Of a DNA stretch of 51,230 nt, positions 36,226 through 41,666 are shown piece by piece. The stretch spans positions 1-51,230 of the forward strand of contig JAHFCH010000018.1 of NCBI GenBank assembly GCA_023249635.1, given 5' to 3'. The notes below the pieces were generated by a model. The model saw only the letters and a program-made list of their open reading frames with translations, did no database searches and was not told the origin of the DNA. A program made the position numbers and the translations under genes. Origin of the DNA: Fibrobacterota bacterium (lineage in GTDB: Bacteria > Fibrobacterota > Fibrobacteria > UBA11236). Each line of letters opens with the position of its first letter. Positions within the stretch are counted from its first letter, which is position 1.

Positions 36226-38775
36226 TCAAAGCCCCAGCACCTGCAGTTTGGCGAACTTCACCATCAGCACCCGCCGGATATGATCCGCGAACAGCACGTG
36301 CACGCGCGCCGACTCGCCGTGGCCGTCCATGGAGACCACTACGCCATCGCCGAACTTGTCGTGGCGCACCTTCTGGCCTTTCTGGAAGCCTACCTCGTGC
36401 TCCTGGCTGAAGTCCTCGTAATCCGGGGTCGTGGTCGATCCCAGATCGTCGCTCCCGCGCCCGCCCGAAGTACCGTAACCGCCGCGTGACGGTCCCCCGA
36501 ACCCCGGCCGCGGATTGAAGCTGCCGCCGCCCGCGCTGCCGCCTCCCAGCCGACCCTGCCGCTCCGCCGCCTGGGCGATGGGGCTCAAGGGCTGCGTCGA
36601 CCGCGCCATCTGCAGATATTGCTTGTCGATCTCGCGGAAAAAGCGCGAACCCCCGGACTCCTGGTACATGCCATAACGCCGCCGGCGCCGGGCGTAGGTC
36701 AAGGTCAATTCCTTGCGCGCCCGCGTCACGGCCACGTAGAACAGGCGCCGTTCCTCTTCCACGTCCCCGTCGTCCATGTCCCGCATCATCGGGAAGAGCC
36801 CGTCTTCCAGGCCGGTCACGAACACGCGCGGGAACTCCAGGCCCTTGGCGCTATGCACCGTCATCAAGGTCACGGCTTCCTGGGTCGCCTTCAAACCGTC
36901 GGTGTCGGCCAGCAGGGAAATCTCCTGCAGGAACAGATCGAGATCTTCCAGCCGTCCCCGCCCTTCGGGGGCCGCGGCCGCAGGCGCTGGCGTACCACCG
37001 GGGTTACCGCCCAGGGCGTCCCCGAAGAAATCCAGCACCGGGGCTTCCGCGGGGGCGGGAGCGGGCTTCGCCACGATCGGGAACTTAAGCTCCAGCGCAT
37101 TCTGGAAGCGCTGCGCCTCTTCGGCATCCGGATCCTTGGAGGCATCCACTTCCCCGTCCGTCCGCCGCCGCAGGAAATCCTGGGCCGCCGAAACGAGCTC
37201 CTCCACGTTGGCCAGGCGATCCAGCGCTTCCTCCGTGCCCTCTTCCTCGAGATGCGCCTTGTAATTGCTGCGGGTGATGATTTCCGCGATCAAGGTCGGC
37301 AAGGGCTCGCTGCCCGCCAGCGACCGCAGCGCATCGATCAGGGACACGAATTGCAGGATCTTTTCCGCCGAGCCCCGGTTGAGCCCGGTGGCATGCGCCT
37401 GCCGCAAGGCATCGAAAAAGGCGATGCCCCGTTCGGCCGCGTACATCTCCACCGTGGAAATGCTCTTATCCCCGATGCCGCGCCGAGGAACGTTCAGGAT
37501 GCGCGCCAGCGATACGCTGTCCGAGGGATTGGAGAGCACGCGCAGGTAGGCCATCAGGTCCTTCACCTCTTTGCGCTCATAAAAGCGGATGCCCCCCACG
37601 ATAAGATAGGGAATGCGTTGCCGCCGCATCTCGTCTTCCAAGATGCGCGATTGCGCATTGGTCCGGTAGAAAATCGCGGTCTCGCCCGGCTTGAAGCGCT
37701 CCGCACCCGGAGCGAGGGAATCCTGATCGCGTATCCGCCGCGCCACCCAGGCCGCCTCCATGATCTCGTCATCGAGCTCCAGCATGTTGATCTTCTCGCC
37801 CGGCTCGTTCGCCGTCCAGATGGTCTTTTCCATGCGTTGCTTGTTGTTGCGGATCACCGAAGAGGCCACGCCCAGGATGTTGGCCGTGGAGCGGTAATTC
37901 TGCTCCAGCTTGGTGATGCGCGCCTCGGGATAGTCCGACTTGAAGCTGAGGATATTGCCGATATCGGCCCCGCGCCAGCCATAGATGCTCTGGTCGTCGT
38001 CGCCGACCACCACCAGGTTATGATGCGCGCCCACCAGCAATTTGATCAGCTTGTACTGCGCCTTGTTGGTATCCTGGTACTCGTCGATGAGCACGTAGCG
38101 GAAGCCCGAAGCGAACACCTCGCGCACCTCGGGATGCAGTTCCAGCAGGCGGATGGCGAGGAAGATGAGATCGTCGAAATCCATCCCGTTGTTCTTGAGC
38201 AATTCCGCGTTGTACTTGGCGTACAGCTCGGCCATGCGTTCTTCGTAGCGATCGTCCGCCTCGGCCTTGGCCGCGTCCACGGTGATGCCCTGGTTCTTGT
38301 GCCGCCCGATATAGCCGCGCACCGCGTCCATGGAAAAGCGCACGTCATCGTCGAGCTTTTCGGCCTTCAGGATGGCTTTGATGAAACGCTTCTGATCGTC
38401 GGTGTCGAAGATGGTGAAATTCTTGGTGTAGCCCAGGCGCTCGGCGTGGAAGCGGAGCAGCCGCGCGCAAATGCTGTGGAAGGTTCCCACCCATCTCAGG
38501 TTGCCCGCGTAGCCGATAAGGGTCGCGATGCGGTTGCGCATTTCCTGGGCGGCCTTGTTGGTGAAGGTCACGGCCAGGATTTCCCAAGGGCGAAGTCCGC
38601 GCTCGCGAATGAGCCAGGCGATCTTGTAGGTGAGCACGCGGGTCTTGCCGGATCCGGCGCCGGCCAGGATCAGCTGGGGGCCGGGGCTGTAGGTAACGGC
38701 TTCGAGTTGGGGCGGGTTGAGGTCGGCGGCGAGGCTTGCGGAGTCGAGGCGTACGAGGTTTGCGGGTGGGTACAT
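36226..38775 (-). CDS. pcrA: UvrD/PcrA-type superfamily 1 DNA helicase
   Basis: An 849-residue 3'-5' helicase for nucleotide excision repair, replication restart or recombination control. I chose ATG 38775 (MYPPANLVRL); the frame extends to 38994 but the extra 73 residues are Pro/Arg-rich and lie in the structured non-coding region. Motifs in order: Q motif LNPPQLEAV, Walker A AGAGSGKT (K44), FTNKAAQEM, GTFHS, DEYQDTN, GDDDQSIYGWRGAD, LEQNYRS, VTLMTVHSAKGLEFP and VAVTRARKELTLTYA. A Gly/Pro linker precedes a C-terminal ~45-residue Tudor-like module (KVRHDKFGDGVVVSMDGHG) that in PcrA contacts RNA polymerase. An insertion around residues 540-590 is Ala/Pro-rich. The gene ends against the parE-like gene. 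Confidence 0.94.
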   Translation of the reverse strand: MYPPANLVRLDSASLAADLNPPQLEAVTYSPGPQLILAGAGSGKTRVLTYKIAWLIRERGLRPWEILAVTFTNKAAQEMRNRIATLIGYAGNLRWVGTFHSICARLLRFHAERLGYTKNFTIFDTDDQKRFIKAILKAEKLDDDVRFSMDAVRGYIGRHKNQGITVDAAKAEADDRYEERMAELYAKYNAELLKNNGMDFDDLIFLAIRLLELHPEVREVFASGFRYVLIDEYQDTNKAQYKLIKLLVGAHHNLVVVGDDDQSIYGWRGADIGNILSFKSDYPEARITKLEQNYRSTANILGVASSVIRNNKQRMEKTIWTANEPGEKINMLELDDEIMEAAWVARRIRDQDSLAPGAERFKPGETAIFYRTNAQSRILEDEMRRQRIPYLIVGGIRFYERKEVKDLMAYLRVLSNPSDSVSLARILNVPRRGIGDKSISTVEMYAAERGIAFFDALRQAHATGLNRGSAEKILQFVSLIDALRSLAGSEPLPTLIAEIITRSNYKAHLEEEGTEEALDRLANVEELVSAAQDFLRRRTDGEVDASKDPDAEEAQRFQNALELKFPIVAKPAPAPAEAPVLDFFGDALGGNPGGTPAPAAAAPEGRGRLEDLDLFLQEISLLADTDGLKATQEAVTLMTVHSAKGLEFPRVFVTGLEDGLFPMMRDMDDGDVEEERRLFYVAVTRARKELTLTYARRRRRYGMYQESGGSRFFREIDKQYLQMARSTQPLSPIAQAAERQGRLGGGSAGGGSFNPRPGFGGPSRGGYGTSGGRGSDDLGSTTTPDYEDFSQEHEVGFQKGQKVRHDKFGDGVVVSMDGHGESARVHVLFADHIRRVLMVKFAKLQVLGL

Positions 38776-39221
38776 CGGGAGGCGAAAGATAGCATAAGGG
38801 CGCCTTGGGCGCACTCTAAAGCGGCCTATGGCGCGGGTTGGTCGCGGGGGTTGTGCGGGGCCACACCCGGGCGGACACGTGGGCCGGCTCAGACGAGGCG
38901 TGGCGCTGCAGTAGGTCGCTGGGCGTTCCGGTGAAGGGGGCGCCCGCGATTTGAAGAGCGCGGGCTGTCGATGCCCTGGTTCTAAGCCCTTCACCGGAAC
39001 TTCCTCTGCCTCGAATTCGCCGGCCCCCGGCCCGCCCGGGCGCGGCCCCGCACAAGCCCAGAGCCCACACGCGCGGCAGGCCGGTTAGGTCCGTTCGGCT
39101 GTTCTCCTACGGACCTGCGGATCTGCCGGCCTCCGGGCTCGGGGTCGACGCGCGAGCGGCGGGTGGCGAGACCCCACCCCCACTTTCATTTCGGCGTTCT
39201 GTGAGGTGGGTAACTTTTGGG
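38776..39221. other. 446-bp gene-free region between helicase and GH43 genes
   Basis: No convincing coding frame occupies this interval: the frames that cross it are Pro/Arg-rich extensions or shadows. It is very GC-rich. It holds the nested-stem element described separately (38851-39175), and near 39211-39225 GTAAC and GTTAC form a short hairpin next to the GH43 stop codon without a T-run. Confidence 0.6.
38851..39175. ncRNA. Candidate structured RNA with nested perfect stems
   Basis: Three adjacent stem-loop domains are built from exact complements. Domain 1 is a rod: 38851-38862 pairs with 39044-39055 (12 bp), 38866-38874 with 39032-39040 (9), 38881-38888 with 39019-39026 (8), 38894-38899 with 39008-39013 (6) and 38926-38938 with 38987-38999 (13). 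An inner hairpin is 38942-38948 with 38959-38965 (7, ten-base loop). Internal loops are small, except a 26/8 asymmetric one. Domain 2: 39061-39066 with 39135-39140, 39078-39084 with 39126-39132 and 39087-39094 with 39109-39116. Domain 3: 39141-39146 with 39170-39175. Strand is undecided; on the minus strand it would be a leader of the helicase gene. I could not match it to RNase P RNA, tmRNA, SRP RNA or 6S RNA. A DNA-level palindromic element is the alternative. Confidence 0.55.
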
Positions 39222-40349
39222 TTACGGTGGGTCGATGGGGATGGGTAGGCCGGTTCCGTTAAAACTCCTGCCGAGAAGATTGCGGTATCGGGCCCGGGGA
39301 TGCCGAACTTGCGCGTGGGGGCGGGATGCCAGGGCGACGGCGGTGCCTTTGGATGGATCCAAGGTAGGCCAGCCAGCAGGGGTCCAGTAAAGGGTTCGGA
39401 TCCAGAGGGTAGAGGCGCCGTTGTTTTGGGCGTCGTAGGCGTGGTTGACGAGGAAGGTGGTGTCGTGGTCGGTGAAGATTGCGTTGTGGCCGGGGCCTTT
39501 CCAGCGGGTGTCGCCGGCGTCAATTAGATCGCCGCCGCCGTTGAGCATGGGTTTGCCTTGGGAGTCCAGGTAGGGGCCGGTCACTTTGGCTGCGCGGCCG
39601 ACGCGGATATTGTAGGTGGAGGCGGCGCCTTTGCAGCAGAGGTCGAAGGAGACGAAGAGGAAGTACCAGGGGCCATGGCGGAACAGGAAGGGAGCTTCGA
39701 TGCCGGAGGGGTGGGAGGCGAGGGCGAGGGTAACGGCGCCAGGGGCGGGCTTGCCGGTGGCGCGATCGAGGCGGATGAGTTTGATACCGCTCCAGAACGA
39801 GCCGAAGGTCAGCCAGGTGGAGCCGTCTTGGTCGGCTTCGTCCGCCTCGTCAATAAAAGCGTTGGGATCGATGGCGTTGTAGTCCGTGGCGTTGGAACTT
39901 TTCCAGACCAGGCCTTGATCGGTCCACGCGGTCGCGCCGGAGCTTGCGTTGAGTTCGCGCGCGGTGGCGAGGCCGATGGCGGAAACGCGCGCACCGAAGG
40001 TGGAGACGGCGTAGTAGAGCCAAAACCGCCCATCGCGGAAATGCGCGTCCGGGGCCCACAGGCCCGCGCCGGAGCCGGGGACGGTCTCGGCATGCCAAAG
40101 CGGCGGCGTCGCCAGGGCCTTGCCTGCGTTACGCCAAGCGATCCGATCCTGGGAGGTCTTCATGGAGACCCCATTGCCGGTATGGAACAGGTAATAGGTC
40201 GATCCGGCTTTCAGGAGCATGGGGTCGTGCACACCGAGATCGCCGGTAAGGGGATTGCCGGTCTGTGCCGGGGTGGGTGGCGGGAGCGCAGCGAAGAGAA
40301 AGATGAAGGAAAGGAAAAGGCCGGAACGCGACGCGAAGGAACTGCGCAT
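39222..40349 (-). CDS. GH43-family arabinanase-like glycosidase
   Basis: A 375-residue exported glycoside hydrolase of family 43, closest in appearance to arabinan endo-1,5-alpha-L-arabinosidases. The five-blade propeller catalytic residues are visible: base D42 in GVHDPM, the pKa-modulating Asp in NAIDPN near residue 160, and the acid Glu in SGIEAPF near 215. Blade phrases YYLFHTG, LWAPDAHF, WLTFGSFWSGI and GPGHNAIF are family-typical. ATG 40349 follows a GGGAG ribosome site and gives a signal peptide ending PTPAQT; ATG 40394 would add 15 residues ahead of it. The C-terminal RNLLGRSFNGTG may be a short sorting tail. It is divergent from a second GH43 gene with 174 bp between, suggesting shared control of pectin-arabinan use. 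Confidence 0.88.
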   Translation of the reverse strand: MRSSFASRSGLFLSFIFLFAALPPPTPAQTGNPLTGDLGVHDPMLLKAGSTYYLFHTGNGVSMKTSQDRIAWRNAGKALATPPLWHAETVPGSGAGLWAPDAHFRDGRFWLYYAVSTFGARVSAIGLATARELNASSGATAWTDQGLVWKSSNATDYNAIDPNAFIDEADEADQDGSTWLTFGSFWSGIKLIRLDRATGKPAPGAVTLALASHPSGIEAPFLFRHGPWYFLFVSFDLCCKGAASTYNIRVGRAAKVTGPYLDSQGKPMLNGGGDLIDAGDTRWKGPGHNAIFTDHDTTFLVNHAYDAQNNGASTLWIRTLYWTPAGWPTLDPSKGTAVALASRPHAQVRHPRARYRNLLGRSFNGTGLPIPIDPP

Positions 40350-40523
40350 GGCAATGCTCCCGATCGCTTGGCCCCATCCGAAATATAAGGCCATGCGCTC
40401 CGGGGTGGGGCGGGACCTTCCGTTCCGCCGGCCCGTATCCCTTCGGGAAACGCTTTCTCCGCAAACGGGCAGCCCGAGTTTCCCGCGGCCGGTAGATTGG
40501 CTTGGGGCTCAGGAGGTATCGCC

Positions 40524-41666
40524 ATGCGCGTTTCCCGGGCCTTCCCCGTTCTCCCGTTTTTACTCTCCGCCAACATTAGCGTCCAGGCGCAAGCCAGCGG
40601 CGACGCGTCCAATCCGCTTACCGGCAGCGTAGGCATCCACGATCCTTCCGCCGTCATCATGGAAAAGGGCGTCTATTACATTTACCAGACCGGCGGTGGC
40701 TTCAAGACCTCGCGGGATAGGCTGCATTGGACCAATGGCGGGCGCGTGTTCGCCGCCAATCCGGCCTGGTGGGACAGGGAAATCCTGCCGCCGGAGAAAC
40801 CCGCCTTATGGGCCGGGGACATTTCCTATTGGAATGGGACCTTCTATTACTACTACTCGGTTTCGGCCTGGATGGATTTCCATTCCTGCATCGGTCTCGC
40901 GACCAATACCACCTTGAACCCCGATGATCCCGCCTATAAATGGGTGGACCGCGGCAAGGTCATCGACTCGGCCAAGGGCAACGAAGGGCGCAGCGGCAAC
41001 GTGAACGTCATCGACCCCTGCCTGTTCCAGGATGGCGACGGCCGGAAATTCCTCAACTACGGATCCTTCACCGTGGGCATGCGCCAAATCGAAATCGATC
41101 CCGCCACGGGACTGCGGCCCGTCAATGCGGCCAAGCCCATCCTCATCAGCGATCATCTGGGCGAAGCTTCCTTCCTCATCAAGGTCGGGAAGTGGTATTA
41201 CTACACCTGCTCACGGGGTACCTGCTGCGCCGCCATGCAAAGCTCCTACCAGGTCGTCTACGGCCGCTCCCAAAAACCCACCGGCCCGTTCCTCACCCGC
41301 AATGGCGGCTCCATGGAAAAGAGCGCGTACGAAGTACTGCTCTCCGGCGATGCGGCCCATCCCGGCCAAGGCGGGCAATCCTTCTTCCGCGATCACGATT
41401 CCCTGTTCATGGCCTACCATGCCTACACCGCTCCGGACGGGCGCTCCCTGCTGAACATCCGTCCCGTGTACCTGGACAAGGATGAGTGGCTTACCATGGA
41501 TCCGGCAAAGGGGGAAATCATCCGCGGAGGCGGGACCGCGGCGATTCGGATAGGAGGGACGGCGAGAACGGGCCGGTCGCGCGCGGCGGGACCCTTTGGG
41601 AATGCGGAGGCCGCGACACTTCTGTTCGGAAAAGGTTTTGACGCCACAGGCGCGTCGAAACCCTGA
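40524..41666 (+). CDS. GH43-family arabinanase-like glycosidase
   Basis: A 380-residue exported paralogue of the preceding enzyme. A strong AGGAGG ribosome site 9-14 bp upstream selects ATG 40524 over 40497, giving a signal peptide ending SVQAQA. Catalytic residues are D40 in GIHDPS, the Asp in NVIDPC near residue 163 and the Glu in LGEASF near 217. WAGDISYWNGTFYYYYSVS, FLNYGSFTVGM and GQSFFRDHDSLFMAYHAY are family blade motifs. The shared start (SNPLTGSVGIHDP versus GNPLTGDLGVHDP) shows duplication, but the enzymes differ widely elsewhere, so they may prefer different arabinan structures or one may be exo-acting. Cysteines in CSRGTCCAAM near residue 235 match CCKGAAS in the sister. Activity is inferred from family. 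Confidence 0.88.
   Translation: MRVSRAFPVLPFLLSANISVQAQASGDASNPLTGSVGIHDPSAVIMEKGVYYIYQTGGGFKTSRDRLHWTNGGRVFAANPAWWDREILPPEKPALWAGDISYWNGTFYYYYSVSAWMDFHSCIGLATNTTLNPDDPAYKWVDRGKVIDSAKGNEGRSGNVNVIDPCLFQDGDGRKFLNYGSFTVGMRQIEIDPATGLRPVNAAKPILISDHLGEASFLIKVGKWYYYTCSRGTCCAAMQSSYQVVYGRSQKPTGPFLTRNGGSMEKSAYEVLLSGDAAHPGQGGQSFFRDHDSLFMAYHAYTAPDGRSLLNIRPVYLDKDEWLTMDPAKGEIIRGGGTAAIRIGGTARTGRSRAAGPFGNAEAATLLFGKGFDATGASKP

Follow-up and report, generated by a model that had tools for sequence, protein, structure and literature searches.

A genus-restricted family of unusually large interspersed palindromes in Fibrobacterota

The stretch of DNA that we analysed (the window; 51,230 nucleotides from the genome of an uncultured member of the Fibrobacterota) contains a large nested-stem element between a helicase gene and a glycosidase gene. 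What is this element? A sequence-only reading had proposed one discrete structured RNA of an undescribed kind. Our best reading is that the element belongs to a previously undescribed family of unusually large interspersed palindromic DNA repeats, which are similar to REP/BIME or ERIC repeats in lifestyle.

The hairpin upstream of pcrA

The proposed stems of 12, 9, 8 and 6 bp (TTGTGCGGGGCC/GGCCCCGCACAA, CCCGGGCGG/CCGCCCGGG, GGGCCGGC/GCCGGCCC, and CGAGGC/GCCTCG) and the inner 7-bp hairpin (GCCCGCG/CGCGGGC) are all present in the sequence and in the folds, as is the stem described as 13 bp, which actually has 14 bp (GTTCCGGTGAAGGG/CCCTTCACCGGAAC). The element had been said to begin at 38851, but it begins about 12 nt earlier. 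Its outer arms (38839-38874 and 39032-39067) form a 36-nt inverted repeat that is 83% complementary. As RNA, 38830-39200 folds far better than shuffled sequence (z = -5.4 for the forward strand and -9.3 for the reverse strand, with 0 of 100 shuffles as good). If 38838-39068 is folded with DNA parameters, then the z scores are -6.6 and -9.6. Two further stem domains had been reported as well: the second (39058-39145) is a real but separate hairpin (z = -4.0 and -5.7), while the third (39144-39190) is at chance level (z = -0.9). The separate hairpin spans 80 nt, has a TGTTCTCC loop, and shows weak similarity to just two other 3' flanks (L084 and L118).

The helicase gene most likely starts at the ATG at 38775, where its orthologues start; the open reading frame that reaches 38994 is a mechanical GTG extension. 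The element had been placed directly upstream of this gene, and this site is kept in four species (G000, which is the window's genome, G002, G003, and G004). In the window copy, we found nothing that resembles a sigma-70 promoter or a terminator. On the other side, two back-to-back divergent GH43 glycosidase genes adjoin the element (39222-40394 on the reverse strand and 40497-41666 on the forward strand). In the window's genome, a leader of the form GGGCGCCTCGGGCGCACTCT(A/C)AAG...GCGCTACCTGGGGG is always 5' of the element when it occurs with one (for example L083 at 3932, L090 at 3368, L124 at 3559, and the window at 38809). A leader-like sequence is also found in L166, where no element was detected.

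Table 1. Features of the element and its neighbourhood in the window
Feature	Positions	Strand	Remarks
pcrA/uvrD helicase gene	36229..38775	-	About 65 bp separate its start from the upstream hairpin, likewise in three other species
5' leader module (GGGCGCC..GGGCGCACTCTAAAG)	38797..38838	+	Shared by several of the elements in this genome, on their 5' side in every case
Whole hairpin element	38839..39067	+	From the inverted repeat and folds; the long arms are at its two ends
Conserved core	38876..39031	+	139 and 134 bits with covariance models R1 and R2; seed member of the family
Asymmetric internal loop, 5' side (CTCAGAC, version UCAGA)	38888..38894	+	
Inner long stem (14 bp), 5' arm	38925..38938	+	Pairs with 38987-39000
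Terminal hairpin CGCCCGCG-ATTTGAAGAG-CGCGGGC, then TGTCGA	38941..38970	+	
Inner long stem, 3' arm	38987..39000	+	
Asymmetric internal loop, 3' side (GCCTCGAATTCGCC)	39008..39021	+	
Separate adjacent hairpin (second domain of the sequence-only reading)	39060..39142	.	Not generally present in the family
GH43 glycosidase gene	39222..40394	-	Flanks the element opposite pcrA

Copies in one genus share a fold rather than a sequence

A DNA search identified diverged copies of the element in the same genome and in relatives. By covariance model, we found at least 82 copies in the window's genus, in five of its six genomes. The counts with model R1 were at least 20 in the window's genome, at least 47 in a sister species (G004), at least 7 in Fibrobacteres bacterium RYN_348 (G002, record JAQBPN01), at least 6 in G005, and at least 1 in G003. 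The sixth genome (G001) had no R1 copy. Model R2 found 2 copies in G003. These counts are minima, since scoring was limited to 150 candidates in each genome and several copies sit at the end of a contig. Several contigs end within or just beyond an element (C134, C45, C241, and C108 of the window's genome, C59 of G004, and C77 of G002). The hairpins thus seem to break assemblies, and the copy number is underestimated. One locus of G002 (L125 2426-2697, which is the same as L035 1323-1600) has a complete copy that directly follows a truncated one, and the two point the same way.

The family appears to be confined to this genus. A scan of 168 Fibrobacterota genomes with R2 and strict filters found nothing in the 162 genomes outside the genus, and when 84,980 species genomes were scanned for a pattern of the element, only one contig matched, from G002. 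We also considered a viral or phage origin, but the sole pattern match in IMG/VR (L137) was weak, lay in sequence that appears to be coding, and was put down to chance. In line with the sequence-only reading, which had matched the element to no common large bacterial RNA, it matches no Rfam family: the window region had no Rfam match at the gathering score or with E below 7 (E values up to 10 were allowed), and 25 kb around eight further copies gave only sub-threshold matches to miRNAs.

Elements are about 230-260 nt long, and the median copy has 77 arm-to-arm Watson-Crick pairs in about 263 nt. From the outside inwards, a long variable stem leads to an asymmetric internal loop, a short stem, and a variable multiloop that often contains GGTCG; then come the long inner stem, another internal loop, the terminal hairpin (CGCCCGCG...CGCGGGC), and a UKUCGA-like sequence. 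The stem of the terminal hairpin is the most conserved of all, but its loop differs widely in length and sequence.

Sequence identity between copies is only about 50%, yet the structure is retained. In a first consensus of 15 aligned copies, 25 of 35 pairs had changes on both sides. Across 82 copies, compensatory changes occur in 33 of 35 pairs (score 0.594 versus 0.183), which bears out the suggestion of a conserved secondary structure. Standard pairs fill 90.4% of the paired cells in this alignment, versus 66.9% after shuffling, and if the partners are slid by 1-3 columns, then pairing falls to 37-48%. The asymmetric internal loop has three versions whose two strands co-vary (UCG/ACUC in 29 copies, UCA/AUUC in 25, and GCG/AUGC in 14), with few mixtures. 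These versions are uneven among species: UCG is found in 27 of 48 copies from G004, UCA in 12 of 20 from the window's genome, and GCG in 4 of 6 from G005.

Intergenic placement, convergent pairs, and shared sites

The copies are intergenic and lie in large gaps (median 646 bp, versus 52 bp for other gaps at the same loci). The flanking genes show no strand preference relative to the element, there is no clear preference for any type of intergenic gap over the surrounding gaps, and we saw no clear orientation relative to replication, as judged from GC skew. Function as a terminator or promoter was rejected on gene context, which shows no clear bias relative to the other gaps nearby. The 5' end of the element is near a gene end or a promoter, and the foot GAGGTGGGTCTGG often comes right after a stop codon; GGTGGGTCTGG is also recurrent as a foot. 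Pairs of elements within 1 kb of each other are always convergent (16 of 16). There is no general 3' trailer; the second element of a pair accounts for most of the similarity on the 3' side. Neighbouring genes have unrelated functions: they include pcrA, uvrB, argG, an M17 aminopeptidase, vipB and hcp of a type VI secretion system, a pyridine nucleotide-disulphide oxidoreductase, and an aldo-keto reductase. In three species, a convergent pair lies behind a terminator-like hairpin between vipB and hcp (L123 1857-4815, L088, and L093).

Ten sites, including the one upstream of pcrA, are common to two to four species, and the orientation is always the same. The PcrA proteins are 73-85% identical among these species, so neutral intergenic sequence should be near saturation. 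Orthologous elements from the window's genome and G004 resemble each other no more than random copies do, but the fold is kept; orthologous elements of nearer species are mostly mutual best matches. Other sites have no detected element in some genomes: the pcrA site in G001, the vipB-hcp pair in G001, G002, and G003, and the site by a CDP-alcohol phosphatidyltransferase gene in G001 and G003. From the shared sites and the sites without a detected element, it follows that the copies are of old, vertical descent and that gains or losses have occurred. No target-site duplication could be defined; at 75-95% protein identity, these species are too distant for duplications to be read.

DNA hairpin, RNA, or relic

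The closest known analogues are other palindromic repeats. REP and BIME sequences are imperfect palindromes with many intergenic copies, inverted pairs of fixed relative orientation, compensatory changes in their stems, and species-specific subtypes (PMC2817692, PMC3733652). The elements described here share the imperfect palindromes in many intergenic copies, the compensatory changes, the fixed orientation of close pairs, and the species-specific subtypes. However, REP stems have 5-13 bp in 20-40 nt, instead of about 77 pairs in about 260 nt, and REPs have neither the asymmetric internal loop nor the nested terminal hairpin. The REP foot is GTAG or CGTC, unlike GGTGGGTCTGG, and genomes with the element lack a cognate Y1/RAYT gene. 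ERIC, YPAL, and NEMIS repeats are dispersed, intergenic, 100-200 bp long, and predicted to give transcripts that are long stem-loops (PMC2229807). Our family is also a dispersed, non-coding, intergenic palindrome with a long stem-loop, but it is longer, has no Rfam match, and keeps its structure at about 50% identity between copies. Also, we did not identify a terminal TA or a target duplication, although we do see the recurrent 5' foot GAGGTGGGTCTGG.

Two other comparisons are less close. In the attC sites of integrons, structure is conserved above sequence, an internal region is unpaired, and the terminal loop is variable, all of which holds for this family too. But the elements are dispersed between housekeeping genes rather than in arrays of gene cassettes, and we did not see the attC boundary signature. 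Large structured bacterial RNAs in Rfam are similar in size, stability, and covariation, but the element has no credible match to them, is present in dozens of copies, and has no fixed orientation to genes.

Nor did we identify a mobilising enzyme or a binding protein for the element. The Y1/RAYT transposase domain (PF01797) is absent from all of the carriers (G000 and G002-G005) and was found only in the element-free G001 and in G010, so we rejected mobilisation by a REP/RAYT system. A link to reverse transcriptases (a retron or an intron) was rejected as well, as the distribution of RVT_1 does not track the element.

In bacteria, long DNA palindromes are usually unstable; this is established for E. 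coli, in which long DNA hairpins are cut by SbcCD. Canonical SbcD (TIGR00619) is above the cut-off in four genomes from other families of the class (G010-G013), but is below it in all six genomes of this genus and has no match in three genomes of a sister genus. In family f1 (G000-G008), no canonical SbcD was found in two genera, although SbcCD is present elsewhere in the class, in other families. The weak SbcD matches that we examined were YaeI/LpxG-like phosphodiesterases and one metallophosphatase that adjoins an AAA_27 ATPase (a YhaO/YhaN-like pair). The palindromes may be tolerated because the hairpin-cutting SbcCD is absent. This absence does not explain the elements, since G001 and the sister genus lack both. 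We took the missing canonical SbcD as a point for a DNA repeat, but counted against it both the lack of SbcD in element-free genomes and the presence of the YhaO/YhaN-like pair, as well as the negative results on a mobilising enzyme, a binding protein, and a target-site duplication.

We lean towards the view that the family is a dispersed intergenic DNA repeat, with one very long imperfect palindrome that works as a hairpin or cruciform of DNA. The main alternative is that the element works as RNA, either as hairpins in 5' or 3' untranslated regions that affect stability or termination or serve as RNase III sites (roles that have been proposed for NEMIS, ERIC, and YPAL), or as independent small RNAs. 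The folding relative to shuffles, the strong covariation, the conservation of the internal loop and terminal hairpin beyond pairing, and the constant position ahead of pcrA in four species would all fit an RNA. If RNA pairing were selected, then single changes to G-U should be better tolerated than changes to A-C. Among isolated stem mismatches in Watson-Crick-only folds, we counted 50 GT or TG and 56 AC or CA, and this lack of a G-T excess points to pairing at the DNA level. Four close orthologous comparisons gave 13 GT versus 8 AC, and the alignment fitted by the covariance model had 152 G-U versus 61 A-C, with 44 of the 152 from two columns and a fitting procedure that itself favours G-U. 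Both of these counts go against a DNA repeat, and the second supports RNA. On balance, the mismatches favour pairing that is kept at the DNA level, without proving it. The random orientation to neighbouring genes, the unrelated functions of those genes, and the lack of anything like a sigma-70 promoter or a terminator in the window copy also argue against RNA. We consider an RNA role possible but fairly improbable, and in a dispersed multi-copy family with these properties, the original proposal of one discrete structured RNA is not supported.

Alternatively, the copies could be decaying selfish miniature elements with no present function, whose pairing persists only through template-switch repair during replication. 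Template switching can restore the pairing of a hairpin and predicts more G-C and U-A pairs than C-G and A-U pairs (PMC8794818). The 5' arms have 51% G versus 30% C and 11% T versus 9% A, and this G richness and slight T richness agrees with what intrastrand template switching would produce (PMC8794818). The same bias also speaks for the DNA repeat. The lack of a wobble preference, the presence/absence differences at one site, and the wide variation in copy number among species are also consistent with decay. But template switching alone would erase mismatches, and those of the internal loop stay in the same positions in its three matched versions. Some selection on the loop therefore seems to be needed. 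The persistence of ten sites and their orientation across species is also hard to reconcile with decay, and we think this explanation is quite unlikely.

Returning to the DNA repeat, the analysis directly shows the structure and its covariation, the number of copies, their intergenic placement and convergent pairing, the conserved sites, and the restriction to the genus; we infer that the family acts at the DNA level, is recognized by a protein, and was mobile in the past. The element would form a DNA hairpin or cruciform whose arms make a stable rod, and the asymmetric internal loop, and perhaps also the terminal CGCCCGCG/CGCGGGC hairpin, would be the feature that a putative protein recognizes. 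Copies probably spread by hairpin-based mobility similar to that of REP/BIME, often as convergent pairs, and would then have held the same sites through speciation. Selection would account for part of the upkeep of the pairing, and template switching that corrects the palindrome as it is replicated would account for another part. A more ambitious version, which we rate as rather unlikely, is a structure-coded chromosomal signal: long DNA hairpin sites across the chromosome, with genus-old positions, where a dedicated protein reads the mismatched internal loop instead of the sequence and canonical SbcCD has been lost.

A genus that keeps dozens of long palindromes at conserved sites, with a fixed mismatched loop and compensatory changes almost throughout, allows direct tests of how long palindromes are tolerated. 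The family also allows tests of the maintenance of hairpins by template switching and of proteins that read DNA by the shape of a hairpin. More broadly, strong covariation alone is not proof of an RNA, since in this family pairing of DNA may be what produces it.
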